From: Nitrospiraceae bacterium | GTDB taxonomy: Bacteria; Nitrospirota; Thermodesulfovibrionia; UBA6902 | NCBI GenBank assembly: GCA_020356065.1 | Contig: CP070632.1 | Span: 1,614,143 to 1,654,244, forward strand | Direction: 5' to 3' | Length of the DNA stretch: 40,102 bases | Program-made: the position numbers and the translations under genes | The notes under the pieces: generated by a model | Database searches by the model: none | Told to the model about the DNA's origin: nothing | The model's input: only the letters and a program-made list of their open reading frames with translations | Part shown: positions 10,113 to 37,233 of the stretch, piece after piece | How positions within the stretch are numbered: position 1 is the stretch's first letter | How the letters are laid out: each line of letters begins with the position of its first letter

Positions 10113-10121
10113 GATAGCTTC

Positions 10122-12695: not shown

Positions 12696-12723
12696 ATCAT
12701 TTAATATCCGGATGTCAAATGTA

Positions 12724-13992: not shown

Positions 13993-14003
13993 ATCTTTAC
14001 ATG

Positions 14004-14099
14004 GTTCAAAATTGTTCAAGGTTATACAAAGACAGTTCAATATTTATTGAGGAAAACAATGTTGAACAATATTAAACTACTTTTGAACAATTGTTGAAC
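14004..14099. repeat. mirror-symmetric array of GTTCAA/TTGAAC hexamers between nuoE and nuoF
   Basis: GTTCAA stands at 14004, 14014 and 14035. Its inverse TTGAAC stands at 14062, 14083 and 14094. The spacings are 10 and 21, then 21 and 11, so the two halves mirror each other about 14051 with helical-turn spacing. The outer arms (14004-14019 and 14083-14099) are nearly perfect inverted repeats and could also form an RNA hairpin inside the nuo transcript. The hexamer recurs upstream of asnS. Confidence 0.6.
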
Positions 14100-14101
14100 G
14101 A

Positions 14102-14566: not shown

Positions 14567-14626
14567 AATTCCAGAGTTAAAATCAGTTAACTATTACGAA
14601 ATGTAATCATGACATTACAGAAACTG

Positions 14627-15850: not shown

Positions 15851-15900
15851 GGACGCATCTTATAATGATTAAGGCTTTATATACCGTTCGAACTTTCAAC

Positions 15901-16434
15901 TCAGGCGTTTATATTCCACTCTTTATCATGTGAATGTAAATCCTTCAGTTCTTCAAAGCCCTTATACTCCCTGTCTTTATGGCCTTTCAGAGGATAGTCT
16001 TTTCTTAAAGGGTGGCCTTCCCAGTCTTCAGGCATCAGAATACGCCTGAGATCAGGGTGTCCATTGAACACAATTCCGTACATGTCACATGCTTCCCTCT
16101 CGTGCCAGTCAGCACCGCGCCATATCGGAACAACACTGTCAATAACAGGATCAGCAGCAGATATTAATGCCTTGATAAAAAGCCTGTGATTGTGCTTAAT
16201 GGAAAACAGATTATAAACAACTTCAAACCGGTCTTCTCTGTCCGGGTAGTCAGCTCCGCATATATCCGCAAGATAGTTCATATATGTATCAGGATCGTCA
16301 AACAGAAACCGGCAGATGCTGATAATTTTTTCTTTCTTCACAGACACAAAAACCTGGTCCCTGAACTGTTTTACCTCAATAATTTCACTGAAAAATTTAT
16401 CTTTAAGCCTACTTACTATCTCCAGGGGCTCCAT
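15901..16434 (-). CDS. nuoC: NADH-quinone oxidoreductase subunit C
   Basis: Structural 30-kDa-type subunit of the peripheral arm, 177 residues. Its signature is [20 protein letters not shown] followed by RRILMPEDW and [10 protein letters not shown]. It has no cofactor of its own and supports NuoD and NuoI. It begins inside the end of nuoB (19-bp overlap) with GGAG 8 nt upstream of its ATG, so it is translated by coupling or reinitiation. Confidence 0.95.
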
Positions 16435-16958
16435 CTGAAATGCTCCTTTTTAATTTTTTCCTGAAGCTTGATGACACCCTCCATCAGGGCCTCGGGTCTG
16501 GGTGGGCAGCCGGGTATATATACATCAACCGGGAGAAAACTGTCCGCACCCTGCACAACCGCATAGGTATCAAAGATCCCTCCTGAGCACGCACAGCTAC
16601 CCATGGCAATGACATAGCGCGGTTCAGGCATCTGATCATAGACCCTCCGGACAACAGGGGCCATTTTTTTTGTTACGGTACCGGCCAGGATAATGACATC
16701 GGACTGGCGGGGAGAGGCCCTGAACACAACACCGAAACGGTCAAAGTCATAATGGCTTGAACCAGTAGCCATCATCTCAATGGCACAGCATGCAAGTCCG
16801 AACGTCATGGGCCAGACAGATGAGCTCCTGCCCCAGTTAACAAGTTTGTCAATTGACGTAATAATGGTACTGGCACCAGGGATAATTTTTGTCCCTTCCT
16901 CAACTTCTACGAGGTCAGACATGTGAGATTGGCTGCCGGTGAGTATTTTTTCGTTCAT
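16416..16958 (-). CDS. nuoB: NADH-quinone oxidoreductase subunit B, cluster N2
   Basis: Carries the terminal [4Fe-4S] cluster N2, the direct electron donor to quinone, 180 residues. The four ligands are visible: the tandem Cys in [10 protein letters not shown], the Cys in GSCACSGG and the Cys in [13 protein letters not shown]. The N-terminal 30 residues are variable and hydrophilic. Its start overlaps the nuoA stop in ATGA. Confidence 0.97.
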
Positions 16959-17326
16959 TCCCAGTTAAACGCCCCTTTCTTCCAGACATATACATAACCA
17001 ACAAGGAGAATAAAAATAAACAGCATCATCTCAACAAACCCGAACATGCCAAGCTTGTCATACGCTACTGCCCAGGGATAGAGAAATACCGCTTCAACGT
17101 CAAATACAACAAACAGCATTGCTATTATATAAAACTTGACAGAGAACTCGGTTCTCGGTTCACCAACAGGAGGATTGCCTGATTCATATGGTGAAAGTTT
17201 CTGGGTATATGGTCTTCTCGGCCGAACAACAAGACCGAGCAAAAGTGTCCCGAGACCTATCAGTGTTGCGATAAGAATGACGATGGCTACTGGAAAGTAA
17301 TCTGTAGGGATGTATGATCCGGGCAT
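16955..17326 (-). CDS. nuoA: NADH-quinone oxidoreductase subunit A
   Basis: Small membrane subunit with three helices, 123 residues. [14 protein letters not shown] is the conserved, mobile TMH1-2 loop near the quinone site, and [16 protein letters not shown] is the second signature. It is the first gene of the operon. The predicted -10 box ends only about 10 bases before the ATG and no ribosome-binding site is present, so the mRNA is probably leaderless or nearly so. Confidence 0.96.
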
Positions 17327-17453: not shown

Positions 17454-17461
17454 ACTCCTTG

Positions 17462-19060
17462 ATGAATAGAATTTTTCGTCATCCGGACAGATCCATCGCA
17501 GCCAAGCTCATGATAGCCATCGGGCTTCTCATGATTATTGTCAGCTTCATTTTCTGGTATACCACCCTTCAAAAACAGAAGAACGACCTCATGACCATAG
17601 CGGTCAAATATGGAAATTCCTTTATTGATTTCACAAGACAGAGCACCCATTACAGCATGCTGAAGTTCCAGCGTGAAGATACTCAAAAAGCCCTTGAAAA
17701 TCTCAGCACCCCGGCAGGGGTCCAGAATGTAAATATATACGACCACAGCGGAAAGATCTTTTTTTCTTCTGACGAGAGCAAGATGGGACAGTCGGTCAAC
17801 ACATCGACCCTCGCCTGCATGAGCTGCCATAAAGACCCTGAAACATCTTCAGAACTTGCAACTGAACAACATAAATGGGCCGTCTATGAAAGCGCGGAAG
17901 GCAGGTCGATCATGAAAATAATAGGCATTATTCCTAACAGCCGTGACTGCTATACGGCCGCATGTCATGTGCATAAAGAAGAACAGAAGATACTGGGATT
18001 TATAGAAGCTGACCTGTCGCTCGGGCTTATTGATGAAGCATTATTAAAGCAGCGCCTTGCCCTCACCGCGTATGTCATAGTATTTGTCCTGTTTGTCTCC
18101 CTGTTTGTAGGAATCATCATTTACAAGATCATTTCCAAACCGGTTCAGCAGCTCGTGGATGAGATGGAAAAAGTCGCCGGAGGCGACCTTGATCATCCTG
18201 TTCCCATCACGTCAAAAGACGAGATGGGAATGCTGGCCAGGGCGTTTAATTCCATGATAAAGGACCTCAGACAGGCAAGAGATCAGAGGGAAAAATGGAC
18301 CCAGCAGCTTGAAGAGGAAGTGCAGAAAAAAACAGCTGAGATCGAACGTACCCATGCCAACCTCATCCAGACTGAGAAGCTGGCATCACTGGGGAGAATG
18401 GCGGCAGGAGTAGCACATGAAATCAACAATCCTCTCACCGGTGTTGTCACGTTTTCCCATCTGCTGAAAAAACATTTTGAACCGGGCAGTGAGGCTGATA
18501 AAGATCTCAATGTCATTATTGAACAGTCTGAGCGATGCTCCAAAATTATAAATAACCTTCTGACTTTTGCCCGTGCAACACCATCGGAAAAGGGACAGGT
18601 GAATCTTAACGATGTACTCAGCCAGACTATTTTCATGATTAAAAATCAGGCCAAGTTTCATCACATCAAGTTCGATATCAACCTGGAAGACAGGCAGTTC
18701 ATAATCACGGGAGATACATCCCAGTTTCAGCAAATATTTCTGAACATGTTTATTAATGCGGCTGATGCCATGAGCGGAAGGGGCACAATAACCGCTTCTA
18801 CGCGAAGCGTAAAGGAAGAGAACAGGGACTTCGTTGAGATAGAGTTTACCGATGAGGGCTGCGGTATCAAGGAAAAGGACATGTCCAAGCTTTTCGAACC
18901 TTTTTATACGACTAAACCTGTTGGTAAGGGGACCGGACTTGGACTTTCCGTAAGTCATGGAATTGTAAAACATCTCGGAGGTCATATAAAAGTAAAAAGT
19001 ACCGTTGGCAAAGGTACAAGTTTTTTTGTTAGACTACCATTGGCTGACCGGGATTCATGA
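17462..19060 (+). CDS. sensor histidine kinase with periplasmic c-type heme motifs
   Basis: 532 residues. A first transmembrane helix (about 14-33) leads to a periplasmic sensor with CMSCH (119-123) and CYTAACH (163-169, a CX4CH variant). A second helix (about 200-222), HAMP (about 223-275) and a coiled coil follow. Then come DHp with AAGVAHEINNPL (H319) and HATPase_c with NMFINAADAM, DEGCGI and GKGTGLGLSVSHG. Covalent heme in the sensor points to redox, oxygen or NO sensing; the ligand is not readable from sequence. It is the only complete kinase in the window. Its stop overlaps the next receiver gene (ATGA), making that its likely first partner. A TTG 3 bases upstream is an alternative start. 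Confidence 0.93.
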   Translation: MNRIFRHPDRSIAAKLMIAIGLLMIIVSFIFWYTTLQKQKNDLMTIAVKYGNSFIDFTRQSTHYSMLKFQREDTQKALENLSTPAGVQNVNIYDHSGKIFFSSDESKMGQSVNTSTLACMSCHKDPETSSELATEQHKWAVYESAEGRSIMKIIGIIPNSRDCYTAACHVHKEEQKILGFIEADLSLGLIDEALLKQRLALTAYVIVFVLFVSLFVGIIIYKIISKPVQQLVDEMEKVAGGDLDHPVPITSKDEMGMLARAFNSMIKDLRQARDQREKWTQQLEEEVQKKTAEIERTHANLIQTEKLASLGRMAAGVAHEINNPLTGVVTFSHLLKKHFEPGSEADKDLNVIIEQSERCSKIINNLLTFARATPSEKGQVNLNDVLSQTIFMIKNQAKFHHIKFDINLEDRQFIITGDTSQFQQIFLNMFINAADAMSGRGTITASTRSVKEENRDFVEIEFTDEGCGIKEKDMSKLFEPFYTTKPVGKGTGLGLSVSHGIVKHLGGHIKVKSTVGKGTSFFVRLPLADRDS

Positions 19061-19422
19061 AGAACATACTAATAATCGATGATGAAGAGATTGTCAGAAT
19101 GAGCTGCGAAAGGGCTCTCCAGGTCGAAGGATTCCATACCGGGGTTGCCTCAGGCGGCAGAGAAGGCCTTGACATGCTTGAGAAAGAGCCATATGACCTT
19201 GTCCTGCTTGACCTGAAAATGCCTGATATGGATGGTATGGAAGTGCTTGGCAAAATCAGGGCATCATGGCCAGATATTAAAGTTATCATGATCAGCGGAT
19301 ACAGCACCGTAGATACCGCGGTTAAGGCCCTCAGGTCCGGTGCCGTAAATTTTATACAGAAACCGTTTGCTCCGGACACTCTTTTTTCAGCAATTAATGA
19401 AGTTTTTGATAAAAAAGATTAA
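19057..19422 (+). CDS. stand-alone response-regulator receiver (CheY-like)
   Basis: 121 residues, a receiver domain only with no output domain. The acidic pair is in IIDDEE, the phospho-acceptor is in LVLLDLKMP (D52), the switch residue is in IMISGYST, and the conserved Lys is in IQKPFAP. It is coupled by a 4-bp overlap to the kinase gene. It shares the unusual helix-1 segment (SCERAL..EGF) with the receivers at 22138 and 23080, so the three are close paralogues. It could be a phosphate shuttle or sink, or could signal by protein contact. Confidence 0.92.
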   Translation: MKNILIIDDEEIVRMSCERALQVEGFHTGVASGGREGLDMLEKEPYDLVLLDLKMPDMDGMEVLGKIRASWPDIKVIMISGYSTVDTAVKALRSGAVNFIQKPFAPDTLFSAINEVFDKKD

Positions 19423-19449
19423 CAATTAAAAAGAGACCGGGCCCGTCAA

Positions 19450-19800
19450 ATGAAACTGGAAGAACTGGAAAAATTACTTCAGGCAAAGGTAGTTGTTGAT
19501 TCGGACAATCTGGAATTCAATATTGACAGCGCATGCAGTGCTGACATGATGAGTTCCGTACTGTATTATCACACTCCAAACTCTCTGCTCATAACAAGTC
19601 TTACCCAGCCCCATGTTGTCAGGACAGCTGAGATTGCAGGGATCAAGATTATCGTTTTTGTGCTCAACAAACAGCCGGACCAGGTAACCATCGATCTGGC
19701 AAAAGAGAAACACATCCCAATTCTTGTAACACCGTACTGTATGTATACTGCGTCAGGAAAGCTTTTTGAGGCCGGGCTTCCCGGTTGCTTGAATAAATAA
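19450..19800 (+). CDS. DRTGG-domain protein
   Basis: 116 residues resembling stand-alone DRTGG-domain proteins, a Rossmann-like module also found in some phosphotransacetylases and CBS-domain proteins. Visible blocks are SLLITSLTQPHVVRTAEIAG and a beta-alpha-beta core ending in IPILVTPYCMYTASGKLF. No catalytic residues are recognisable. In Clostridia and Thermotogae such small DRTGG proteins accompany an RsbW-like ATPase and a PHP protein next to HydABC-type hydrogenase genes, and the same set follows here. The exact role is unknown, possibly nucleotide sensing. Confidence 0.75.
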   Translation: MKLEELEKLLQAKVVVDSDNLEFNIDSACSADMMSSVLYYHTPNSLLITSLTQPHVVRTAEIAGIKIIVFVLNKQPDQVTIDLAKEKHIPILVTPYCMYTASGKLFEAGLPGCLNK

Positions 19801-19802
19801 TA

Positions 19803-20240
19803 ATGCCTCTTAATACAGACAAAACTATAGAAGGCAGCTTCCAGTTAATCGGCGGTGATTTCTCAATTGCCGGAGAATCTTCCGCACGGTTAAAAAGCAT
19901 CCTCACAGACCTCGGGGTTCAGGAAGATATCATAAGAAGGGCTTCCATCGCAACCTTTGAAGCCGAGATGAATGTAATTATCTATGCTGCAGCAGGTACA
20001 CTGCATTACGAGATCTCTCCCCGGCAGATAAGGATAACGCTGGTTGATATGGGACCGGGCATCAAGGACATTGACCAGGCCATGCAGGAAGGTTATTCCA
20101 CAGCGCCTGACTGGGTTCGCGAAATGGGATGGGGGGCCGGCATGGGGCTGCCAAATATGAAGAAGAATTCTGATGAATTTAAAATAGACTCAGTGGTAGG
20201 AGAGGGAACAACAGTTGAAATGGTCATTAATTTGCCATGA
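19803..20240 (+). CDS. RsbW-like HATPase (anti-sigma/serine kinase type)
   Basis: 145 residues of the GHKL ATPase fold without a histidine-kinase dimerisation domain. EAEMNVIIYAA is the N-box, DMGPGI the G1 box and GWGAGMGLPNMKK the lid/G2 box, all as in RsbW/SpoIIAB-type anti-sigma kinases. The N-terminal strand (GSFQLIGGDFSIAGE) matches the family. No anti-anti-sigma or sigma gene lies nearby, so its partner may be one of the flanking DRTGG proteins. It starts 3 bp after the preceding gene without a clear ribosome-binding site, so translation is probably coupled. Confidence 0.85.
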   Translation: MPLNTDKTIEGSFQLIGGDFSIAGESSARLKSILTDLGVQEDIIRRASIATFEAEMNVIIYAAAGTLHYEISPRQIRITLVDMGPGIKDIDQAMQEGYSTAPDWVREMGWGAGMGLPNMKKNSDEFKIDSVVGEGTTVEMVINLP

Positions 20241-20302
20241 CGATAACCTTTATGGAGCGTTGCATTCATTAGAGAAGCCTTCCATCAAAAAGGAGATATT
20301 TT

Positions 20303-20635
20303 GTGAAACTCGGTGAGATTGTTGAGAAGTTATCATTGGACGTCAAAACTGGTCATCACGGTCTTCAGAAAGAGGTGTCCGGAGTATATGTGAGTGACCT
20401 GCTCTCTGATGTGATGGCGAACAGTAAAGAGGGTAATGTATGGATCACTCTTCAGACACATCTGAATATCGTAGCTGTCGCGGGGCTGAAAGGTCTGGCC
20501 GGAATTATCATTGTGAATAACAGACAACCGGAAAAAGAAATAAATGATAAGGCTGATTCCGAAAAAGTTACCATCATGACCACCTCCATGCCTGCATTTG
20601 AGGTGACCGGAAAATTGTATCAGATGTTGAATTAA
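20303..20635 (+). CDS. second DRTGG-domain protein
   Basis: 110 residues, GTG start at 20303 with AAGGAG 7 nt upstream. It is similar in length and plan to the protein at 19450: VWITLQTHLNIVAVAGLKG, a beta strand GIIIVNNRQPE, then VTIMTTSMPAFEVTGKLYQ. The recurring TGKL/SGKL ending supports common descent. The two probably work together with the intervening ATPase. Its catalytic function is unknown. Confidence 0.75.
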   Translation: MKLGEIVEKLSLDVKTGHHGLQKEVSGVYVSDLLSDVMANSKEGNVWITLQTHLNIVAVAGLKGLAGIIIVNNRQPEKEINDKADSEKVTIMTTSMPAFEVTGKLYQMLN

Positions 20636-20648
20636 TCGTTAAACTTAA

Positions 20649-20674
20649 GGGTCACATCCCACGGGATGTGTCCC
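20649..20674. terminator. strong hairpin between the second DRTGG gene and the PHP gene
   Basis: CACATCCC (20653-20660) and GGGATGTG (20663-20670) form a perfect 8-bp stem over a 2-nt loop. GGG (20649-20651) and CCC (20672-20674) extend it across a T-T mismatch. The following CTTCCTGTTT is only weakly U-rich. It may be a partial terminator or processing site that lowers expression of the downstream genes. A GTG inside this stem is unlikely to be a start codon. Confidence 0.45.
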
Positions 20675-20691
20675 CTTCCTGTTTAAACCAG

Positions 20692-21435
20692 ATGCCAAAA
20701 CAGTTCAGAGCTGATCTTCATATACACACCTGCCTGTCTCCCTGTGCCGATATCACGATGTCTCCTTTACGCATAGTAAATAAAGCAGTGGAAAGAGGGC
20801 TTGACATCATTGCGATAACAGACCATAACTCAGCGGAAAACACCGCTGCTGCCGTTCGGTCTGTCAGGGACATGAACCTGTTTGTTCTGACAGGAATGGA
20901 AGTAACTTCATCGGAAGAAGCGCACATTCTGGCGCTTTTTGACAATATAGAAAGCATTCTAAGGCTGCAGGACACTGTTTACCGTAATATGACGGCCGGT
21001 GAAAATGTTGAGAGATTGTTTGGAGAACAGGTAGTGGCCAATGAAAACGATGAGGTCATGGGCTTTAACAAAAGGCTTCTTATAGGTGCAACTAATATGT
21101 CTGCCAATTCAATTGTAACTGAAATACATTCACTGGGCGGCCTAGCTATAGCCTCCCACATAGACAGGGACGCTTTCAGCATACTCTCCCAACTGGGATT
21201 TATCCCTGACGATGTATCATTTGACGCGCTCGAACTGTCTTCTGCAATCAGCAGGAAAAAGGCAGAGGAATTGTATGAAACCTACGATTCATTTACCTGG
21301 ATATCATCCTCAGATGCCCATGCAATTGATGATATCGGTAAAAGGACCACCTTATTTCATATGAACGATTCATCAATTGAAGAAATGAGAATGGCTTTAA
21401 AAAGCATCAACGGCAGGAAAGTGGAGTGGGAATAA
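20692..21435 (+). CDS. PHP-domain metal-dependent phosphoesterase
   Basis: 248 residues from the ATG at 20692. Metal-binding motifs appear in family order: DLHIHTCLSPC, ITDHNSAENT, GMEVTSSEEAHILALF, ASHIDR and SSSDAHAIDDIG. These are the His/Asp sets of the PHP (polymerase and histidinol phosphatase) superfamily. The substrate is unknown; related proteins act on small phosphates or nucleotides. I rejected an upstream GTG (20668) because it lies in a hairpin. PHP, DRTGG and RsbW-like genes travel together next to hydrogenase-type NuoEFG genes in other anaerobes, suggesting a conserved regulatory or nucleotide-turnover role. Confidence 0.88.
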   Translation: MPKQFRADLHIHTCLSPCADITMSPLRIVNKAVERGLDIIAITDHNSAENTAAAVRSVRDMNLFVLTGMEVTSSEEAHILALFDNIESILRLQDTVYRNMTAGENVERLFGEQVVANENDEVMGFNKRLLIGATNMSANSIVTEIHSLGGLAIASHIDRDAFSILSQLGFIPDDVSFDALELSSAISRKKAEELYETYDSFTWISSSDAHAIDDIGKRTTLFHMNDSSIEEMRMALKSINGRKVEWE

Positions 21436-21465
21436 ATAAAGGAGCAAAGTTTAATGACTTCACCG

Positions 21466-21496
21466 TTGTGCCTCTGTGCCTTTGGCCCTTTGGCCC
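21466..21496. repeat. short GTGCCTYT / TTTGGCC quasi-tandem repeat
   Basis: TTGTGCC, TCTGTGCC, TTTGGCC and CTTTGGCC stand head to tail. They fall between a good ribosome-binding site (AAGGAG at 21439-21444) and the conserved start of the next protein at 21508. This resembles the other 7-8-nt repeats of the intergenic spacers. Confidence 0.45.
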
Positions 21497-21507
21497 AAGT
21501 TAATAAA

Positions 21508-22059
21508 ATGCAGGATCTTTCATTACATATTCTTGATATTGCTGAGAATTCTATTGCTGCACGCGCAGGAAGAATAAGCATAAAAATACATGAAAGCAAA
21601 AAAACAAACCTTCTCACAATTGAAATAAGCGATGATGGTATGGGGATGGACGATAATATGTTACAGCATGCACATGATCCTTTCTATACGACGCGGACCA
21701 CCCGTAAGGTGGGCCTGGGAATACCGCTGCTCAGCCAGGCTGCAGAACATTGTCATGGTCAGATGACAGTTGAAACAGAAAAAGGGAAAGGTTCAACAAT
21801 TAAAGCCAGTTTTCAGCATGATCATATCGACAGGAAACCCCTCGGTGACATAGCTTCCACTGCTGCTGTTCTCATAGCCGGCAACCCGGAAATAAACTTT
21901 CTGTTCGAACTCAGGAGAGAGGATGAGGATCTGATTATTGATACGGAAGAATTAAAAAATGATCTTGAAGATATTCCTGTTAATTCTCCTGATGTGATAA
22001 AAATTATTAAAGACACTATAAATGACTGGTTAAAACAGACAAATTATGTGATAGAATAA
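21508..22059 (+). CDS. HATPase-domain protein, histidine-kinase-like ATPase
   Basis: 183 residues from the ATG at 21508. LHILDIAENSI is the N-box, SDDGMGM the G1 box, FYTTRTTRKVGLGIPLL the G2/lid region and GKGSTIKASFQ the closing strand. There is no phospho-accepting His domain. A C-terminal tail of about 70 acidic residues (LRREDEDLIID..) is specific to this group. MQDLSLHILDIAENSI is how its homologues in HydABC-type loci begin, so I start there. The ATG at 21454 has a better ribosome-binding site but would add 18 residues made of repeat DNA. It may work as a kinase toward a partner protein. Confidence 0.82.
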   Translation: MQDLSLHILDIAENSIAARAGRISIKIHESKKTNLLTIEISDDGMGMDDNMLQHAHDPFYTTRTTRKVGLGIPLLSQAAEHCHGQMTVETEKGKGSTIKASFQHDHIDRKPLGDIASTAAVLIAGNPEINFLFELRREDEDLIIDTEELKNDLEDIPVNSPDVIKIIKDTINDWLKQTNYVIE

Positions 22060-22073
22060 CTTTGACAAATGGT

Positions 22074-22091
22074 CGCTATGCTTTCATAGCG
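22074..22091. repeat. perfect 7-bp hairpin ahead of the receiver-GcvH gene
   Basis: CGCTATG-CTTT-CATAGCG, without a following U tract. It lies 46 bp upstream of the ATG at 22138 and may influence mRNA stability or coupling. Confidence 0.4.
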
Positions 22092-22137
22092 TACGTCTCA
22101 CCCGTGAAAACAGCGCAATAAAGGATTGTAAAGGGCA

Positions 22138-22905
22138 ATGGAAAAGGGAAGAATTCTTGTACTTGACGATGATCCGATCGTGACTCTCAGTTGCAAAAGG
22201 ATTCTTGGTGCGGAAGGCTACAGCATTTCAACAGTTGAAAAGGGAGAGGAAGCCCTCAACAAACTTGCCAAGGAAGATTTTGACTTACTCATTTCAGATG
22301 TAAGGCTCCCGGACATTAACGGCATGGAAGTGCTGAAGGAATCACGGATAGTAAAGCCCAAAACGGACGTGGTCATTATTACCGGCTACCCCACACTGGA
22401 AGACGCGAAAGAATCAACCAGGCTCGGAGCATCTGAATACATAGAAAAACCGTTTACTCCGGACTTTATGCTGAATGTTGCGAAAAAAGTATTTGATACC
22501 AGGGGATGGATACTGAGACAGGCCTTCATCGATGAATTCAGGGATTATGTAGTGCCCGTAAAGGACAGCAAGAACCCGGTCATTTTCTATAAGGAAGGCA
22601 CATGGGCGAGACCCTACAGGGAAGGTCTTTGGGAGATAGGATGTGATCTCAGATACTGGATGCTGTCAGGAAACCTGATGTATGTCGAATTTATAAAAAA
22701 CCTTGACAGATTTGTTGCCGGCAAGACCTTTGCAAGAATATATTCCAGCAGCGGAAAGGGCAGTGAGCTGCTCTCCCCGATGAACGGGGAGTTAAAGGAA
22801 GTCAACAAAAAGGCGAATGATGTGATGTGTGCTCTCATTAAGGACCATCTTTCTGAAGGCTGGCTGTTATGGCTGGCCAGAGTGTTGCCTTTAAGTGACC
22901 AATAA
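22138..22905 (+). CDS. response-regulator receiver fused to a GcvH-like domain
   Basis: 255 residues. Receiver 1-120: DDDP, D54 in LLISDVRLP, switch Thr in IITGYPT, Lys in IEKPFTP (K104). The C-terminal part (about 155-247) follows the glycine-cleavage H-protein pattern: LWEIGCDLRYWMLSGNLMYV, FVAGKTFARIY, LLSPMNGELKEVNKK and HLSEGWLLWL. In GcvH the lipoyl-lysine lies in ESVKAAS. Here the turn reads SSSGKGSE, with K207 displaced, so lipoylation is uncertain. It is not a DNA-binding regulator. It could bind or mimic a lipoyl carrier, or act as a phospho-controlled scaffold for the oxidoreductase encoded downstream. Confidence 0.82.
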   Translation: MEKGRILVLDDDPIVTLSCKRILGAEGYSISTVEKGEEALNKLAKEDFDLLISDVRLPDINGMEVLKESRIVKPKTDVVIITGYPTLEDAKESTRLGASEYIEKPFTPDFMLNVAKKVFDTRGWILRQAFIDEFRDYVVPVKDSKNPVIFYKEGTWARPYREGLWEIGCDLRYWMLSGNLMYVEFIKNLDRFVAGKTFARIYSSSGKGSELLSPMNGELKEVNKKANDVMCALIKDHLSEGWLLWLARVLPLSDQ

Positions 22906-23079
22906 GTTTTCATTTGAACGGTGAGGGTTGCAAAGCTCAAGTCACTTTCATAAAATGGTTACTTAGTGTGCAGTGTCCTGAATGGCAGACATTATTGGGT
23001 ATCGTTACATATATTTTTTAACAATAATGATATCATTTTTCCGGAATCATACATACACGGCATCAATTAAGGAGCGTAC

Positions 23080-23973
23080 ATGACAGACAATATGAAAATA
23101 CTGGTTGTTGATGATGAACCTATCGTAATAAAGAGCTGCGAATCGGTTCTTCGGGCCGAGGGGTATAATGTTGAAGGCCTGTTAAGCGCCAGGGAAGCAA
23201 TGCTCAAAATGGAAAAACAGCCATTTGATCTCGTATTCACAGACCTTAAAATGCCGGAGGTAGACGGACTTACACTCATACGGTGGATCAGAAAAGAAAG
23301 ACCTGACACAGGCATTGTTGTCATTACCGGATATCCGTCTCAGGAGACCATAAAGGAAGCTCTTGAACTTGGCATTATTGATTACGTGCCCAAGCCGTTT
23401 ACCCCTGTAGCCCTTATCGACGTTGCAAAAAGAGCGGTAGACTGGATAAAAGGACCGCCTGCTGTTGATAAGGAGAAAGAGAAAGAAAAAGAACGGGAAG
23501 AACTGCCGCCCTCAATGCTCAATGAAATCGACAGGGTAATCGATCAGTATAAGGGCAAAGCCGGAAGTTCTATTCCGGTGCTGCAGCGGTGCCAGGAGAT
23601 CGTCGGGTATCTGCCACCTTCCGTACAAAAAATAGTTGCAAGGGGATTGGGTCTGACGCCTGCGGATATCCACAGTATAGTTTCCTTTTATTCATTCTTC
23701 ACCATGAAGCCCAGGGGAGACCACAATATCAGGATCTGTCTTGGAACAGCCTGTTATGTCAAGCGAGTTGAAGAAGTCCTGAACAAACTCATGACTGATC
23801 TGAAAATCGATGTCGGTGAAGTTACCGAGGACAAAAAATTCTCGATCGAGACGGTACGCTGTCTGGGTGCCTGTGGACTGGCGCCTGTCATGGTTATCGA
23901 TGATGAGACATATGGCGCGGTTACACCCAAGAAAGTCCCTGACATACTCAGGGAGTATGCTGTCAAAGAGTAA
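23080..23973 (+). CDS. response-regulator receiver fused to a NuoE/HydC-like [2Fe-2S] domain
   Basis: 297 residues. Receiver about 1-120: DDEP, D55 in LVFTDLKMP, ITGYPS, and K105 in VPKPFTP. A highly charged linker (131-142) leads to a complete NuoE-like part (about 145-290). That part has the helical bundle ending in HSIVSFYSFF and a thioredoxin-fold domain with ligands C220, C225, C261 and C265 (CLGTAC and CLGACG). AAGGAG precedes the ATG. NuoE-type subunits sit against the flavin subunit encoded two genes downstream, so phosphorylation could directly modulate an NAD(H)-linked enzyme. The reading frame is continuous, so the fusion is not a visible frameshift artefact. Confidence 0.93.
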   Translation: MTDNMKILVVDDEPIVIKSCESVLRAEGYNVEGLLSAREAMLKMEKQPFDLVFTDLKMPEVDGLTLIRWIRKERPDTGIVVITGYPSQETIKEALELGIIDYVPKPFTPVALIDVAKRAVDWIKGPPAVDKEKEKEKEREELPPSMLNEIDRVIDQYKGKAGSSIPVLQRCQEIVGYLPPSVQKIVARGLGLTPADIHSIVSFYSFFTMKPRGDHNIRICLGTACYVKRVEEVLNKLMTDLKIDVGEVTEDKKFSIETVRCLGACGLAPVMVIDDETYGAVTPKKVPDILREYAVKE

Positions 23974-24038
23974 TACAACCAATCAGTATCTCATTCTGCG
24001 TTTCCGGTGAATGAGACATTATAAGGGAGAATATTGTT

Positions 24039-24422
24039 ATGCCAAGATTGACCATAAATGATCTGAAGAAAATTAAAGAAAATCAGAAGTCTACATTCAA
24101 GCTGAGAGAAGGCGGATACAGGGCTAAAATCACCGTACACATGGGAACGTGCGGTATCGCGGCCGGTGCCAGAGAGGTTATGACTGCTGTTCTGGATGAA
24201 ATATCTAACTCTGGAGCAGAGGACATCATTGCCACCACATCAGGGTGCGCAGGGCTTTGTGCAAGAGAACCAATGGCCACGGTAGAAATTCTGAACAGTC
24301 CGCCCGTAAAATATGTTGATCTGACTGCAGACAAAATGAAAGAGATATTCAGGGAACACATAACAGGCGGCAATCCTGTTGAAAAATATGCCTTTGTTGT
24401 GGGCAGTGAAACTACATACTGA
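24039..24422 (+). CDS. thioredoxin-fold [2Fe-2S] ferredoxin
   Basis: 127 residues. After an N-terminal helical arm comes a thioredoxin-like [2Fe-2S] domain. Ligands lie in HMGTCGIAAGARE and TTSGCAGLCAREP, giving C-x(n)-C plus C-x3-C like the NuoE/HydB N-terminal domains. This one lacks the first pair's second Cys at the usual position, so the cluster may be ligated atypically. Comparable small proteins sit between hydC- and hydB-like genes in bifurcating hydrogenase loci, which matches its place here. GGGAG lies 9 nt before the ATG. It is probably an electron carrier or accessory subunit of the complex. Confidence 0.85.
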   Translation: MPRLTINDLKKIKENQKSTFKLREGGYRAKITVHMGTCGIAAGAREVMTAVLDEISNSGAEDIIATTSGCAGLCAREPMATVEILNSPPVKYVDLTADKMKEIFREHITGGNPVEKYAFVVGSETTY

Positions 24423-24574
24423 CTAATAAAATAACAATGATCAAATCACAGATATCGAATACATCGCAATTGCACATTTCAAACGCTGAAATTCTTGGTA
24501 ATTGGAATTTTTTGTATATTTGGTGCCTGAGATTTGTTAATTTGGAATAACACATATCGCCAATTGAGGTAAAA

Positions 24575-26428
24575 ATGGAAAATTATCGTGCTAATTTATT
24601 GCTGTGTGCCGGGACCGGCTGCGTCGCAAGCGGTACCCCCAAGGTAACAGCTGCCCTGAGGGAAGAGCTTGAAAAGAAGGGTCTGTCAGATGAAATCAAG
24701 ATAGTGCTGACAGGCTGTAACGGGTTCTGTGCCGAGGGTCCTGTCATGCTGGTATATCCTGATGAAATCTTTTATCAGAAAATTACGGTGGAAGAGGTCC
24801 CCAAACTCGTAGAAGAGCATTTCCTGAAAGGCCGGCCCTATGAAAGGCTGATGTTCAGGGAGCCTGAGAAACGGGCTGCCATTCCTTTAATGAATGAAAT
24901 CCCGTTCTTTAAACATCAGGTACTCAGAGTATTACGGAACAAGGGTCTTATTGACCCTGAAAGTCTCGAAGAATACATAGCACGAGACGGCTATCTGGCA
25001 ACCGCCAAAGCGCTTCATGAAATGACACCTGAAGATATCATTTCTGTGATAAAAGATGCAGGGATAAGGGGACGGGGCGGCGCAGGTTTCCCGACAGGCC
25101 TGAAGTGGGAATTTGCATCCAAATCACAGGCTGACCAGAAGTATATGCTCTGTAATGGTGACGAGGGTGATCCCGGCGCATTCATGGACCGGTCTGTTAT
25201 GGAGGCAGATCCGCACTCGGTAATCGAAGGTATGATCATCGGTGCACGGGCAATAGGTGCGAGTAAGGGTGTCATCTATGTTCGTGCCGAATATCCCCTT
25301 GCGGTTGAGCGTCTGCAGAGGGCCATTAACCTGTGCCGTGAATCAGGCCTTCTCGGTAATAATATCCTTGACAGCGGATTTGATTTTGACCTTGAAATAT
25401 ATCTCGGTGCCGGGGCATTTGTCTGCGGTGAAGAAACTGCCCTCATGCGCTCCATTGAAGGACAGCGCGGCATGCCCAGGCCAAGACCTCCCTTCCCTGC
25501 CCACAAGGGGTTATGGGATAAACCGTCGGTGCTGAATAACGTTGAGACCCTTGCACAGATCGCTCCTACCATTCTCAATGGTGCTGAGTGGTACCGGTCA
25601 TTGGGTACTGAGAAAAGCTCGGGCACAAAGGTATTTGCCCTGACCGGAGATATCAGAAACGTGGGACTGGTTGAGGTGCCGATGGGTATTCCCCTGAAGA
25701 CCATCATTTACGATATCGGCGGAGGTATGAAAAACAAGAAAAAGAAATTCAAGGCGGTCCAGATGGGAGGTCCCTCAGGCGGCTGCATTCCTGAAGACCT
25801 TATAAATATCCCTGTTACCTATGAAGATGTTGTCAAAACTGGCGCCATTATGGGCTCAGGCGGTATGGTTGTCATGGATGAAGACACATGCATGGTCAGC
25901 ACGGCAAAGTTTTTCCTTGAATTTACAGCTGATGAGTCCTGCGGGAAATGTACTCCCTGCAGGGTGGGCACAAGGGTTATGCTTGATATGCTGACCGACA
26001 TTACCGAAGGCCGCGGCAAGGAAGGTGATATAGAAATACTGGAAGACCTGAGCAGAGATATTATCGCAACGTCTCTTTGTGGACTCGGCCAGACAGCGCC
26101 CAATCCTGTACTGTCCACGATCAGATATTTCAGGCATGAGTATGAAGCCCATATTAAAGACCATTGGTGTCACGCGGGCATATGCAGCGACCTTGCTTCG
26201 TTCCATGTTATTGAAGAAGTCTGTAAAGGATGCGGAGCATGTCTGAGGGCATGTCCGCAGCAGGCAATAGTTGGTGAAAAGAAAAAGCCGCACAGAATCC
26301 TCCAGGAACTCTGCATCCAGTGCAGGTCCTGTTATGATGCCTGCAAATTCGCATCTATCAAAATAGAGCCTGCTCAACCAAAGGAAAAACCCGAGCCTGT
26401 TGCAGTGGATCAGGGGGGATCAGAATAA
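24575..26428 (+). CDS. HydB/NuoF-like NAD(P)H-binding flavoprotein with extra Fe-S domains
   Basis: 617 residues. An N-terminal thioredoxin-fold [2Fe-2S] domain has ligands C11, C16, C48 and C52. The NuoF core carries GRGGAGFPTGLKWEF and CNGDEGDPGAFMDR (FMN/NADH), then GAFVCGEETALMRSIEG, an SLBB domain and ESCGKCTPCRVG ([4Fe-4S]). A C-terminal ferredoxin module has CKGCGACLRACPQ and CIQCRSCYDACKF. This layout is that of HydB/HndC-type subunits of bifurcating enzymes, not of NuoF in complex I, which lacks both extensions. GAGG lies 5 nt before the ATG, and the stop overlaps the next start (TAATG). The enzyme should exchange electrons between NAD(P)H and iron-sulfur carriers. Confidence 0.93.
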   Translation: MENYRANLLLCAGTGCVASGTPKVTAALREELEKKGLSDEIKIVLTGCNGFCAEGPVMLVYPDEIFYQKITVEEVPKLVEEHFLKGRPYERLMFREPEKRAAIPLMNEIPFFKHQVLRVLRNKGLIDPESLEEYIARDGYLATAKALHEMTPEDIISVIKDAGIRGRGGAGFPTGLKWEFASKSQADQKYMLCNGDEGDPGAFMDRSVMEADPHSVIEGMIIGARAIGASKGVIYVRAEYPLAVERLQRAINLCRESGLLGNNILDSGFDFDLEIYLGAGAFVCGEETALMRSIEGQRGMPRPRPPFPAHKGLWDKPSVLNNVETLAQIAPTILNGAEWYRSLGTEKSSGTKVFALTGDIRNVGLVEVPMGIPLKTIIYDIGGGMKNKKKKFKAVQMGGPSGGCIPEDLINIPVTYEDVVKTGAIMGSGGMVVMDEDTCMVSTAKFFLEFTADESCGKCTPCRVGTRVMLDMLTDITEGRGKEGDIEILEDLSRDIIATSLCGLGQTAPNPVLSTIRYFRHEYEAHIKDHWCHAGICSDLASFHVIEEVCKGCGACLRACPQQAIVGEKKKPHRILQELCIQCRSCYDACKFASIKIEPAQPKEKPEPVAVDQGGSE

Positions 26429-28887
26429 TGAAACTCACAATAAACGGAAAAAAAGTAACCGCAAACGATGGAGATACCATCCTTGATGCTGCCCTTAGCA
26501 ACGGCATTTACATTCCCAACCTCTGTTATGATAAACGGTTAAGGCCGTATGGCGGATGCAGGCTGTGCGTGGTGGAGGTGGAAGGCCAGGCAAGGCTTTT
26601 TGCCGCCTGTTCATCTCCTGCTCAGGACGACATGGTCGTTGCTACCGACACTCCCAAATTACAAAAACTGCGTCAGACAGTTATTGAACTGCTTCTGGTT
26701 CATCATCCGCTTGATTGTCCTGAGTGTGACAAGGCAGGTGAGTGTGATCTCCAGGACCTGGCCTATCAATATGGCAAACATGATGCACGTTTTAAGCGGC
26801 TCAGAAAGGACACTGCCTCTGATGTGAGGGGACCCCTGATTGAACTGACATCCCGGCGCTGCATTCTTTGCGGTAAGTGTGTAAGAATCTGCAAGGAACA
26901 CCAGGGCAGAGGCGCGCTCGGACTTATCGGCAGGGGCTTTCCAACTGTTGTGCAACCTGCATTTGGAGAAATACTTGAATGTGATTTCTGCGGTCAGTGT
27001 CTTGATGCGTGTCCCACAGGGGCTATTATCAGTAAACCTTACAAATACACCTCGCGTTCATGGTTTCTTGAAGAAAGAGACACCATATGCCCTTTTTGCG
27101 GGGTAGGATGTACGCTTACGATCGGCCTGAGAGAAGGGAAGATCCTGAGATCCCGGGGACAGGAGGGCAAGGGGGTCAATGACGGGAACCTCTGCGGCAG
27201 AGGCAGGTTCGGGACAGACTACATATATAATGAGAAAAGACTGACCTCTCCCCTTATTAAACAGGGAGATGCATTTAACAGTGTATCCTGGGAAGATGCC
27301 CTGAAATACATTTCTGATAAATTCAGGAGCATAATTGAAAAGCATGGCCCTGAACAAATTGGAGCAATAGGTTCTCCCCGATGTACAAATGAAGACAACT
27401 ACACCCTGCAGAAATTTATACGCACTGTTATCGGGACAGGCAATATAGGATCATCTGCTGCCTTTGGCTACGCAAGAGTACAGAGGGCCTGGTCCCGTGC
27501 GTTTGGGAGAGGCAGTCATCCTATTGACCTCATGTCACCGCTTGGCAAGGACGTGATTTTCATTCTTGAATCTGATATCACTGTTACACATCCCGTCTTC
27601 GGACTCAATATACTCCAGGCCGCCAGAGAAGGCTCGCGATTGATTGTTGCTGACTCAAGAGATACGAAGCTGACCAGACATAGCACCCATAAGCTCAGGG
27701 TAAAGGACGGAACCGGCGTGGCATTATTAAACGGAATAATGAATGTTATTCTGGAAAAGGGGCTCCACAAGGATGCTTATGTGTCGAAGATCCCAAATTA
27801 CTCATCCTTTGTTGAATCTGTTCGGGAATTTACTCCTGAAAAAGTCTCAGCAATCACCGGGGTGTCAGCTGATGAAGTTACATCAATTGCAGAAATCATG
27901 GGCAGTGCTCAAAGCAGATTAATATGCTTTTCTGTCAGCTCTACGGAAAACACCAAGGGCCAGGACACCGTGTATGCAGCCTCCAATCTGATCAACCTGC
28001 TCGGCGATGATCCCGAGAGCCTTCAGATTCCGGCTGAATATTCCAATACATTCGGCATGTATCAGGTGGGAGGAAAACCGATCAATCCTCCTGAAGACAG
28101 GGGTATTCTGGATATGCTGTATAACGAAAACCTGAACATGAATGCACTGTATATCATGGGTGAGGATCCGGTAACTACGTTTCCCGAAAGTTCAACTGTC
28201 ATTAAGAGGTTGACATCACTTGATTTTCTCGTTGTGCAGGACATTTTCATGACGGAAACGGCAAAACTCGCGGACGTTGTACTCCCTGCATCAAGCTGGT
28301 CTGAAAAAGACGGGACCTTCACCAATAGCGAGGGTAAGGAGCAGGAGGTGTACAAACTGGTAGATCCTTCCGGTCAGGCCATGCCTGACTGGATGATAAT
28401 AAAGAATCTTGCCCTGACCATGGAAAGGGAAATCGGGATAAGAAACATTGATGAAATCCGTGCAGAGATGAGAAATTCAATTCCCGAGTCCGGGTCTTCT
28501 CCCCTGAACCGCTCATTCCAGCCGGTAAAATATAAGAATGGTACTGATCCAAGCCCTGATTATCCTCTCAACCTGGTTATCAGGGATGTAATGGTCCATT
28601 CTGGCAGCATGTCAACCAGCTCGGAATCTCTTGACCTTGTCCTTTCCGAAGCACTGCTTGAAATCAATGAGGAAGATGCTGAACATCTTGGCATCATGGA
28701 CAGCAGTCACGTTAAAATATCGTCACCTCAGGGATCCATATTCTTAAAAACAAAACTGTCTGATGAAGTCCCTGCCGGGACCGTATTTGTTCCTGCTCAT
28801 TTTCCGCATTCAAAAATCAATACTCTCACCAGTATAACGTCTGGCGGCGAACACAGGCGCACAATGGTAAAGGTGGAAAAGGCATAA
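26428..28887 (+). CDS. NuoG/FdhA-like iron-sulfur subunit without the catalytic Sec/Cys
   Basis: 819 residues. [2Fe-2S] domain (CYDKRLRPYGGCRLC..), HPLDCPECDKAGEC, CILCGKCVRIC, CDFCGQCLDACPTG, then a molybdopterin-oxidoreductase domain opening with CPFCGVGC and NLCGRGRFGTDY. RCTNEDNYTLQKFIRTVIGT matches formate dehydrogenase alpha subunits closely. The following segment, where those enzymes have the Mo-ligating Sec or Cys (CARV-U/C-H), reads GSSAAFGYARVQRAWSR, without either. There are no H-cluster motifs. I read it as an electron-transfer subunit whose molybdopterin domain is non-catalytic or repurposed. It is coupled to the flavoprotein gene and is last in the locus. It differs substantially from nuoG, so it is not a recent duplicate. 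Confidence 0.9.
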   Translation: MKLTINGKKVTANDGDTILDAALSNGIYIPNLCYDKRLRPYGGCRLCVVEVEGQARLFAACSSPAQDDMVVATDTPKLQKLRQTVIELLLVHHPLDCPECDKAGECDLQDLAYQYGKHDARFKRLRKDTASDVRGPLIELTSRRCILCGKCVRICKEHQGRGALGLIGRGFPTVVQPAFGEILECDFCGQCLDACPTGAIISKPYKYTSRSWFLEERDTICPFCGVGCTLTIGLREGKILRSRGQEGKGVNDGNLCGRGRFGTDYIYNEKRLTSPLIKQGDAFNSVSWEDALKYISDKFRSIIEKHGPEQIGAIGSPRCTNEDNYTLQKFIRTVIGTGNIGSSAAFGYARVQRAWSRAFGRGSHPIDLMSPLGKDVIFILESDITVTHPVFGLNILQAAREGSRLIVADSRDTKLTRHSTHKLRVKDGTGVALLNGIMNVILEKGLHKDAYVSKIPNYSSFVESVREFTPEKVSAITGVSADEVTSIAEIMGSAQSRLICFSVSSTENTKGQDTVYAASNLINLLGDDPESLQIPAEYSNTFGMYQVGGKPINPPEDRGILDMLYNENLNMNALYIMGEDPVTTFPESSTVIKRLTSLDFLVVQDIFMTETAKLADVVLPASSWSEKDGTFTNSEGKEQEVYKLVDPSGQAMPDWMIIKNLALTMEREIGIRNIDEIRAEMRNSIPESGSSPLNRSFQPVKYKNGTDPSPDYPLNLVIRDVMVHSGSMSTSSESLDLVLSEALLEINEEDAEHLGIMDSSHVKISSPQGSIFLKTKLSDEVPAGTVFVPAHFPHSKINTLTSITSGGEHRRTMVKVEKA

Positions 28888-29096: not shown

Positions 29097-30800
29097 ATGT
29101 ATAACGAATATTTCGGCCTGGAAGAAACCCCATTTTCTATCGCACCTGATCCCCGCTATATCTATATGAGCGATCAACACAGGGAAGCGCTGGCACATCT
29201 CATATATGGATTTAACAGTACCGGCGGTTTTGTACTGTTGACCGGTGATGTTGGAACGGGTAAGACAACTATTTGCAGATGTTTACTGGAGCAGATACCT
29301 GATAACTCGTCAATAGCTTTTATATTTAATCCAAAGCTTACTGTCGAGGAACTGCTTGCGACTGTATGTGATGAGTTCGGTATTACATATAACAAAGGCA
29401 GTTCAAGTATCAAGGAATATGTTGATCTCATAAATTATTTTTTACTCCAGACGCACTCACAAGGGGTCAAGGCCGTACTGATTATTGACGAAGCGCAGAA
29501 CCTCAGTACGGAAGTACTGGAACAACTCAGACTGCTCACCAATCTCGAAACCAACCAGCATAAGCTTCTTCACGTCATACTGCTGGGGCAGCCGGAACTG
29601 GGGCTGAAACTGTCGAAGCCGGAGCTTTCCCAGTTATCACAGCGTATCATAGCCCGTTACCACCTGGGACCTCTATCAAAAAAAGATGTGGGCGCTTATG
29701 TCAACCACCGGCTGAAAGTTGCGGGCATACATAAACAGTTGTTCTCAGCTGCTGCAATCAATAAGCTCTATCGCTTTACCGGAGGAGTTCCCCGTTTGAT
29801 TAATGTTATTTGTGACAGGGCCCTGCTGGGTACGTTTACGAAAGATCAGGAGAGAGTAACCAGATCAACATTGTCTCGAGCTGCCAACGAAGTCTTCGGT
29901 GACAGGAGGGGCCGTTTGGCAGGTACACAGAAAAGAGCAATAGCATGGGCCTTAATGACGATAGTTATTGTAGCTTTTGGAATTGCCCTGGCTTCAAATT
30001 ATATCAGCTTTGATTCAGAGACCCTGTCAAAGTACGTGGGTTTGAAACAGGAACCAGAAGTCATTGACGGGCCTGATAATGTAAAGTCGCCAGATACTGA
30101 TGCGACGATCAGAAGTGAGCGTTTCGTGACCGCCGCTGATATTACATCTGAACCCGCAGACCCGGGTGTTTCTGATGACATAAACAGGACAGCAGAGGAA
30201 ACAAAGAAGCAAAGCGAGGGTCTGTCATATACGTCTATGTTTAAATTGTGGAATATTGATCACAAACCCCGGAATTTCGCTGATGCCTGCAGCAGCGCTG
30301 AAAAGTATGGTCTCACATGTATGACAGGATTCAAAAGCATGAAGAGCCTGAAAAAAATTAACAGACCTGCGGTACTTAAACTTTTTGATACAGAAGGAAA
30401 CAGTTATTATGTAACTCTGATCGCTCTTGGCGATGATACCGCAAGAATACGTTTTGGTAACGAAGAAAAAACCGTTGATATTGAAGAAGTAGAATCACAA
30501 TGGTTTGGACATTATACCCTGTTCTGGCGACCACCTGAAGATTACAAGGGTACCTGGTCCCTGTATGACGGGTCTGCGGTAAAATGGCTGAGAAAGAATA
30601 TAGCGGTGATTAATAAGACACAGCTGGAAGAACCTGACAGTATGGTATACGACAGTGATCTTGTACGAGAGATCAAGAAATTTCAGGTTGCCGAGGGTCT
30701 TAAACCGGATGGAGTTGCGGGTCCGCTTACTATGATTCATATCAATACTGTTCTTGACAGCAGTGTACCGACACTGACAGGCCCTGGAAGGATGAACTGA
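29097..30800 (+). CDS. gspA: GspA/ExeA-type AAA ATPase with peptidoglycan-binding domain
   Basis: 567 residues. The MYNEYFGLEETPFSIAPDPR opening is diagnostic. The AAA domain has Walker A GDVGTGKTT (50-58) and Walker B AVLIIDEAQNL (D131, E132). One transmembrane helix is at about 281-300. A periplasmic region follows, including a peptidase-C39-like/BatA-type stretch and a C-terminal peptidoglycan-binding domain (FQVAEGLKPDGVAGPLT). In Aeromonas, ExeA with ExeB helps insert the type II secretin through peptidoglycan. No secretin or other gsp genes are in this window. It is followed 2 bp later by gspB. There is no clear ribosome-binding site. Confidence 0.92.
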   Translation: MYNEYFGLEETPFSIAPDPRYIYMSDQHREALAHLIYGFNSTGGFVLLTGDVGTGKTTICRCLLEQIPDNSSIAFIFNPKLTVEELLATVCDEFGITYNKGSSSIKEYVDLINYFLLQTHSQGVKAVLIIDEAQNLSTEVLEQLRLLTNLETNQHKLLHVILLGQPELGLKLSKPELSQLSQRIIARYHLGPLSKKDVGAYVNHRLKVAGIHKQLFSAAAINKLYRFTGGVPRLINVICDRALLGTFTKDQERVTRSTLSRAANEVFGDRRGRLAGTQKRAIAWALMTIVIVAFGIALASNYISFDSETLSKYVGLKQEPEVIDGPDNVKSPDTDATIRSERFVTAADITSEPADPGVSDDINRTAEETKKQSEGLSYTSMFKLWNIDHKPRNFADACSSAEKYGLTCMTGFKSMKSLKKINRPAVLKLFDTEGNSYYVTLIALGDDTARIRFGNEEKTVDIEEVESQWFGHYTLFWRPPEDYKGTWSLYDGSAVKWLRKNIAVINKTQLEEPDSMVYDSDLVREIKKFQVAEGLKPDGVAGPLTMIHINTVLDSSVPTLTGPGRMN

Positions 30801-30802
30801 TT

Positions 30803-31621
30803 ATGTCATTCATACTTGACGCATTAAAAAAACTGGAGCAAAACCGAAAGCGCGGTGAAGTCCCTGATATAACCACTGTGCATCTACACGATAAAAAGTC
30901 CCCGAAGAAGGTCGTATTATGGCCGTATCTGCTTCTTGCCGCACTGATCTTAAATGCCGGGATATTTGCGGCGTGGCTGAGACCATGGGAGGAGAACGGG
31001 GCCATGACCGCAGAGTCCGGAATTCAGGAGGGTGAAGAAACAGCCCAACCAGACCAGATAAAGGCTGATACACCTGCTCAACCCGTTACAGCGAAAGTTG
31101 AAAACATTACTGAAAACAAAGATGACGCAGTTATACCTGCAGGAGATGATAAGGGAAATAAAGAAATTCCGGACAATATCCCGGAACCGGTGGATCTGAT
31201 GGAGCAGGAACTTCCAGTAAAGAGCAGCGATGAAGGCACTATTGCTACAATCGGGCTTAATCCAACCCCTGAAGAGATTGGCATCCTTCGTGATAAAATC
31301 AAAGAGGAACAGGAATTCACAAATCAGATGCCGTTAGAAGATCTCGCTGAGTCTATTGAACCGGCAACCATGGAACCTGAAGACAGAGGCAGTCTTATTA
31401 ATTTCAGCCAGCTACCGGATGATGTCCGGAAAGAGCTTCCTGAGATAACCATTAACGGTCATATTTATTCTGATAACAGGTCAGCAAGAATAGCCAACAT
31501 AAACGGATTTATTACCCGTGAAGGTGACAAGGTATCATCAGGGCTTATACTGGAAGAGATCACTACTACCGGAGTTATTTTCAGCTTTAAAGAATATAAA
31601 TTCCGGATGAGAGCGTTTTAA
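30803..31621 (+). CDS. gspB: GspB-type general secretion protein
   Basis: 272 residues. MSFILDALKKLEQNRKRGEV is the conserved cytoplasmic start of GspB/ExeB proteins. One transmembrane helix (about 38-58) leads to an acidic, low-complexity periplasmic linker (about 65-200) rich in Glu, Asp and Pro. A C-terminal T2SSB domain (about 205-272) has LPEITINGHIYSDNRSARIA and the REGDKV stretch. It starts 2 bp after gspA and should form the inner-membrane GspAB complex with it. Confidence 0.9.
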   Translation: MSFILDALKKLEQNRKRGEVPDITTVHLHDKKSPKKVVLWPYLLLAALILNAGIFAAWLRPWEENGAMTAESGIQEGEETAQPDQIKADTPAQPVTAKVENITENKDDAVIPAGDDKGNKEIPDNIPEPVDLMEQELPVKSSDEGTIATIGLNPTPEEIGILRDKIKEEQEFTNQMPLEDLAESIEPATMEPEDRGSLINFSQLPDDVRKELPEITINGHIYSDNRSARIANINGFITREGDKVSSGLILEEITTTGVIFSFKEYKFRMRAF

Positions 31622-37205: not shown

Positions 37206-37233
37206 TCACTTCTTACTTCTCATTTCTGACTTC
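37206..37233. repeat. four tandem TYAYTTC-type heptamers overlapping a stop codon
   Basis: TCACTTC, TTACTTC, TCATTTC and TGACTTC run without gaps. On the minus strand the second unit supplies the TAA stop (37213-37215) of the multiheme cytochrome gene, and the last two units encode its final residues. Confidence 0.6.

Follow-up and report, generated by a model that had tools for sequence, protein, structure and literature searches.

The nearest described enzyme to the locus studied here is the Nuo-Bfu complex I, which corresponds to the BfuB clades 38 and 39 (Schut et al. 2022, PMC9304861). The residues H525, C531, and C536 are the ligands of the B2 cluster and mark the bifurcating BfuB proteins, and the C-terminal domain of BfuC is proposed to carry the cluster C1 between the FMN and B2, acting as a moving switch (PMC9304861). 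The main text of that paper makes no mention of response regulators or kinases. The nearest regulatory precedent is Rv3143/Msmeg_2064, an orphan response regulator which copurifies with mycobacterial complex I, binds to NuoD, and modulates complex I; phosphorylation by the tested kinases or by acetyl phosphate was reported to be absent (PMC9274095).

Receiver-NuoE and the surrounding gene cluster

We analysed a window of 40,102 nucleotides from a Nitrospiraceae bacterium, in which an earlier note, made from the sequence, had described one uninterrupted frame joining a phospho-receiver to a NuoE-like [2Fe-2S] subunit. The frame belongs to a cluster of 12 same-strand genes (17459 to 28887) with intergenic gaps of -4 to 174 bases, in the order histidine kinase, CheY-like receiver, DRTGG, HATPase, DRTGG, PHP, HATPase, receiver-GcvH, receiver-NuoE, TrxFd, NuoF, and NuoG/Fdh-like. 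The kinase which the earlier note had placed at 17462 indeed heads this cluster, with its gene starting at about 17459. The features are as follows.

2671-17326, -: complete canonical complex I operon, divergent, with a 132-base gap to the kinase gene
17459-19060, +: HAMP/HisKA histidine kinase with a periplasmic Cache-like sensor and two heme-c motifs, heading the cluster
19057-19422, +: CheY-like single-domain receiver, with a 4-base overlap with the kinase stop
19450-19800, +: DRTGG-domain protein 1 (Pfam)
19803-20240, +: anti-sigma-like HATPase
20303-20635, +: DRTGG-domain protein 2 (Pfam)
20668-21435, +: PHP-domain protein (Pfam)
21454-22059, +: second HATPase (Pfam)
22138-22905, +: fusion of a receiver with a GcvH-like domain whose lipoyl lysine lacks conservation
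23080-23973, +: receiver-NuoE (RR-BfuC) fusion of 297 aa, ATG at 23080, stop at 23973
23098-23424, +: receiver domain of the fusion, residues 7-115, with D11, D12, D55, T83, and K105 (Pfam)
23527-23958, +: NuoE/BfuC domain of the fusion, residues 150-293, with the [2Fe-2S] ligands C220, C225, C261, and C265 (Pfam)
24039-24422, +: thioredoxin-like [2Fe-2S] protein (TrxFd) in an HndB-like position
24575-26428, +: NuoF/BfuB with an FMN domain, an N-terminal [2Fe-2S] domain, a 2x[4Fe-4S] C-terminus, and the B2 signature H526/C532/C537
26428-28887, +: NuoG/BfuA with an Fdh-like pterin domain, catalytic Cys and His absent (G347, Y348)

The receiver is covalently joined to the NuoE domain. The open reading frame at 23080 to 23973 is uninterrupted from start to stop, and both domains match their Pfam families far above the cut-off, with 101 bits for Response_reg at residues 7-115 and 165 bits for 2Fe-2S_thioredx at residues 150-293. 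The PF01257-type match covers 144 of the 145 model positions and includes the N-terminal helical part and the Trx-like domain with its four cluster cysteines. The receiver has the expected acidic pair D11/D12, the acceptor D55, T83, and K105. The description in the earlier note, comprising the single frame, the residues D55, K105, C220, C225, C261, and C265, and a charged linker, is therefore borne out, with D11, D12, and T83 also in place and the linker (KEKEKEKEREE) located at about residues 125-143. AlphaFold2 predicts this linker to be disordered, with a pLDDT below 50 at residues 130-139, and folds the fusion into two confident domains (mean pLDDT 87) whose arrangement is not confident (pTM 0.46), showing no fixed receiver-NuoE interface. 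The low pTM and the disordered residues suggest that the receiver and NuoE domains are flexibly tethered. The best PDB matches of the model in Foldseek are the NuoE-type chains of the electron-bifurcating NfnABC and HydABC enzymes, which agrees with the sequence search.

The NuoF protein of the window has every ligand position for the clusters B1, B3, B4, and B5 in addition to the B2 His/Cys signature. The B2 ligands H526, C532, and C537, which correspond to H525, C531, and C536 of PMC9304861, are kept in 55 of 56 aligned NuoF proteins, the remaining one having a gap, and the B5 cysteine pair C11/C16 is found in 51 of the 56. By the criteria of PMC9304861 the B2 signature indicates a Bfu-type core in which the fused subunit is BfuC, and the sequences make it very probable that receiver-NuoE belongs to such a core. 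The cluster cysteines of NuoG are all conserved (51/51). Among solved structures, the formate dehydrogenases come nearest to its pterin domain in sequence; the formate dehydrogenase catalytic position is a glycine in 50 of 51 aligned NuoG proteins, and the Cys-His pair is G347 and Y348 in the window. An NAD-dependent formate dehydrogenase was rejected, as the catalytic Cys/Sec and His are replaced by Gly-Tyr, which makes it unlikely that the NuoG-like subunit is a formate dehydrogenase.

The N-terminal region of the kinase has a transmembrane-periplasm-HAMP layout and contains the motifs CxxCH (C120, C123, and H124) and CX4CH (C164, C169, and H170). Of 19 aligned kinases, those of the window and 18 relatives, 18 have the first motif (the window and 17 of the relatives), and none lacks the second, which reads NE-x2-CYTxxCHxH or differs from it only slightly. 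In Foldseek the predicted sensor fold resembles Cache domains, with WalK and KinD as the best hits and CitA also among the matches. The match to the Tll0287-like sCache_heme family (PF11845) is weak, with 14.1 bits against a cut-off of 24.1, and falls on the CxxCH region. The motifs suggest that the kinase may sense a redox or NO state through heme c. The kinase gene is not located beside the fusion in every genome (e.g., f11), and in G126 it lies inside the complex I operon.

Directly upstream of receiver-NuoE, the receiver-GcvH gene (22138-22905, +) represents a second conserved receiver fusion. Its phospho-Asp and Lys are invariant in 35 aligned proteins and its lipoyl lysine position is not conserved, and on this ground a lipoylated GcvH output was rejected. 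A direct transcriptional output of the window's cluster was also discarded, since its three receiver proteins have no DNA-binding domain in Pfam. In a quick tree built on few columns, the receivers of the receiver-NuoE and receiver-GcvH families are adjacent, with single-domain receivers of the same clusters close by. These neighbouring positions would fit a duplication within one signalling circuit, although as an origin of the cluster's receivers this is suggestive only.

Several related arrangements were seen elsewhere. The DRTGG-HATPase-DRTGG-PHP-HATPase cassette (19450-22059, +, in the window) is found again at many loci (L112-L186) in several phyla, where it accompanies NuoEFG genes of the Bfu type. 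At L053:7310-8179 (G101), the cluster's anti-sigma-like HATPase appears to carry a fused receiver closely related to that of receiver-NuoE. The receiver-NuoE genes of L068 and L069 (G292 and G160) have no NuoF or NuoG neighbours, and the surroundings of L069 are unrelated. The window's own genome has a paralogous cluster (L083:7318-8064, on C1 near 2601317), in which a receiver is fused to the N-terminal half of NuoE only, lacking the cluster domain; its neighbours are NfnA/NfnB-like genes, TrxFd, NuoF, and NuoG, and genes for a dCache kinase and a LuxR-type regulator lie nearby.

Outside the cluster, the window encodes an XrtA/PEP-CTERM-type ATPase, which has a peptidoglycan-binding domain and precedes a T2SSB-domain protein (29097-31621, +), and a multiheme cytochrome, in which the CXXCH motifs are doubled, next to an AhpC-TSA/TPR protein (37213-39793, -). 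A 136-aa open reading frame (36691-37101, +) matches over its full length the archaea-specific threonyl-tRNA synthetase editing domain (PF08915, 146 bits) in this bacterial genome.

Distribution and conservation of the fusion

The search for the fusion covered 296 genomes of the phylum, about 117 of which belong to the window's class, Thermodesulfovibrionia, by count of the table. Full-length matches were found at 80 loci in 76 genomes with 37-80% identity, all within the class; the rest of the phylum yielded no fusion and at best unfused NuoE proteins with 53-55% identity. In 47 genomes of other phyla, which came from a scan with NuoE-half patterns returning mostly unfused NuoE, no fusion but only unfused NuoE was found at the threshold used; rare fusions outside the phylum may exist. 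A search with only the NuoE half (E <= 1e-52) gave 95 matches, spread over 94 of the 140 class genomes. Of these, 90 are in open frames of at least 283 aa, which is long enough for the fusion, so a local sequencing error does not account for the join. One of the five shorter frames begins at a contig end, and the rest come from assemblies that are drafts or less complete.

The earlier note would have been refuted by separate halves in all close relatives or by the loss of D55 across homologues. Neither was found: the halves are fused in 10 of 11 sampled genomes of the organism's own family, and site 55 is an aspartate in 50 of 53 aligned receiver-NuoE proteins, with E, N, and Y occurring once each. 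Site 105 is a lysine in 52 of the 53, and the cluster cysteines are intact throughout, save for two paralogues which stop after the N-terminal half of NuoE. Some lineages have naturally lost the receiver function signature with NuoE intact, namely L079 (G144) with D55 changed to Y and L081 (G174) with D55 changed to N, and in L082 (G172) no receiver is detectable beside a still intact NuoE. In the maximum-likelihood tree of NuoE domains, all 53 fusion-lineage rows form one clade (100/96) far from the canonical complex I NuoE, and the group closest to it, with weak support (90/64), consists of NuoE proteins without a receiver from Nuo-Bfu complex I operons in this phylum. The fusion is old and of single origin.

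Connection to complex I and alternative explanations

On the G126 contig the gene order is nuoA-nuoB-nuoCD-kinase-receiver-[receiver-NuoE]-TrxFd-NuoF-NuoG-DRTGG-HATPase-DRTGG-PHP-HATPase-nuoH-I-J-K-L-M-N, so that the module occupies the nuoEFG slot within the complex I operon. In G162, G225, and G303 the module cluster adjoins a complex I operon which runs from nuoCD straight to nuoH without nuoEFG, and G101 has the module placed between nuoCD and a canonical nuoE. G126 thus shows the arrangement that defines Nuo-Bfu complex I, with BfuABC within or replacing nuoEFG, and G162, G225, and G303 show it by adjacency; the window has the module running divergently from a complete canonical operon. 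No NuoF of the canonical size (about 420 aa) was found in G126, G162, and G225. Class members without the fusion also have a complex I without nuoEFG (e.g., f10), so the absence of nuoEFG alone is weak evidence. Among 65 genomes in which both could be located, the fusion is within 25 kb of the complex I nuoF or nuoH in 20, compared with about 2% expected by simple arithmetic for random placement in a 2.5-Mb genome; the 45 genomes without linkage are partly explained by short contigs. A complete canonical nuoA-N operon is present in the window genome as well (nuoH-N, assigned by size and order, served as search queries), and the module is therefore not the only N-module of this genome. Taken together, an association of the module with complex I is somewhat favoured.

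The best reading, to which we assign a probability of roughly 0.45 when it is taken loosely as any direct phospho-control of the complex I input module, is that of a Bfu-type module which feeds electrons from NADH and ferredoxin into complex I under the control of a kinase. The gene would encode the NuoE/BfuC subunit of this electron-input module with the receiver attached covalently. A membrane kinase with heme c in its periplasmic Cache domain would sense redox or NO conditions on the outer side of the membrane and phosphorylate D55 of the fusion receiver, and the phosphorylated receiver would alter how mobile the NuoE cluster domain is or where it is placed, or the seating of the NuoEFG module, setting the electron flow which enters from NADH and ferredoxin. 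Phosphorylation of D55 by the co-encoded kinase is probable, and the chances that it gates electron entry directly, as the earlier note had proposed, are about even. The cell may thus control electron entry by direct phosphorylation of the enzyme. The full picture of a proton-pumping complex I whose input module is switched by aspartyl phosphorylation of a built-in receiver, driven by a heme-sensing kinase, is put forward tentatively and falls somewhat short of an even chance.

In favour of this reading are the receiver and cluster residues being intact across the class, the place of the kinase in the cluster, inside the complex I operon in G126, and the lack of DNA-binding domains in the receivers of the window's cluster. 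It also draws on the B2 His/Cys kept in NuoF, the NuoG cluster cysteines being conserved while the formate dehydrogenase catalytic residues are lost, the linkage of the module to complex I, and the NuoE of Nuo-Bfu complex I operons being the nearest group. Against this reading stand the organism's own canonical nuoA-N, the unlinked genomes (45/65), the kinase being absent beside the fusion in some genomes, the missing fixed receiver-NuoE interface, the weak sister support (90/64), and the receiver decay in G144, G174, and G172.

Several of these points would also suit a receiver controlling a free soluble Bfu enzyme with some third substrate, not complex I, with electron flow still gated but at a different reaction. 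The similarity of the NuoG pterin domain to formate dehydrogenases, the canonical complex I owned by the window organism, and the 45 unlinked genomes are in its favour, but the formate dehydrogenase catalytic Cys and His are gone, and the module fills the nuoEFG slot in G126 and lies beside a nuoEFG-less complex I in three genomes, so we consider it unlikely. More doubtful is a receiver serving as a docking or assembly tag, where phosphorylation would decide the recruitment of NuoEFG to the membrane arm or its swap with the canonical NuoEFG, leaving the intramodule electron transfer unaltered. The flexible tether without a predicted intramolecular interface, the two NuoEFG sets of the window organism, and the binding of the single-domain Rv3143 to NuoD in mycobacteria (PMC9274095) would agree with such a tag; it would, however, sit on the very subunit that is proposed to switch bifurcation by moving, and G126, G162, and G225 have no canonical-size NuoF to compete with. 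Information might also flow in reverse, with the redox state of NuoE altering the phosphatase or sink activity of the receiver, so that the kinase and the two remaining receivers would be informed of the NADH/ferredoxin state. This would make use of the three related receivers in one cluster and of a system without DNA-binding output, but the heme motifs of the kinase sensor already give a redox input, and it seems very improbable; we know of no precedent for a redox subunit reporting back to a kinase via its receiver. A fusion made by assembly error or frameshift, for which nothing speaks except the short frames of some MAG copies, is ruled out for practical purposes by the identical join in 76 genomes at 37-80% identity and the long frames of 90 of the 95 orthologues.

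The outputs of two-component systems are mostly transcription factors or signalling enzymes. If the kinase-controlled input module is true, the output here would be a subunit with a redox role in core energy metabolism, a respiratory complex would take the place of the output domain in a two-component system, and complex I-type enzymes would be controllable in real time by the periplasmic redox state. A phospho-switch on BfuC, the subunit proposed to move, would furthermore give a handle to test the bifurcation mechanism.

Comparison with known systems

The Nuo-Bfu complex I shares with the locus the Bfu-type NuoF with extra clusters and the B2 His, the NuoE/TrxFd/NuoF/NuoG order, and, in Nitrospirota operons, the DRTGG-HATPase-PHP cassette, and its NuoE is closest in sequence to the fused NuoE; however, that NuoE has no receiver, and the NuoG of the present locus is a longer Fdh-like protein (PMC9304861). 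The HydABC and Hnd bifurcating enzymes have the BfuBC core in common, and the NuoE domain is 40-43% identical to HydC/NfnC-type chains, whereas these enzymes have no receiver and their catalytic domain (hydrogenase or other) is absent here. The NAD-dependent formate dehydrogenases FdsABG share the NuoG-like N-terminus and the Fdh-like pterin domain, but the catalytic Cys/Sec and His are missing in our locus. The sCache_heme (DUF3365/Tll0287) sensors resemble the kinase in combining a periplasmic Cache fold containing CxxCH with HAMP and kinase domains, whereas the window kinase stays below the Pfam cut-off (14.1 versus 24.1 bits) and adds a second conserved motif, CX4CH (PMC12889525).

Like Rv3143, which acts by protein contact, the receiver has no DNA-binding domain and is encoded beside nuo genes; unlike the fusion, Rv3143 is a separate, stand-alone protein which binds NuoD rather than NuoE and belongs to a canonical complex I, whereas here the receiver is covalently attached to NuoE (PMC9274095). 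The earlier note had known of no described enzyme controlled in this way. This stands for the covalent case, as a literature search of open-licence papers with partial coverage found no report of a receiver joined to NuoE, but it is too broad for unfused regulators, since Rv3143 modulates complex I (PMC9274095). What would be new is the covalent control by aspartyl phosphate.
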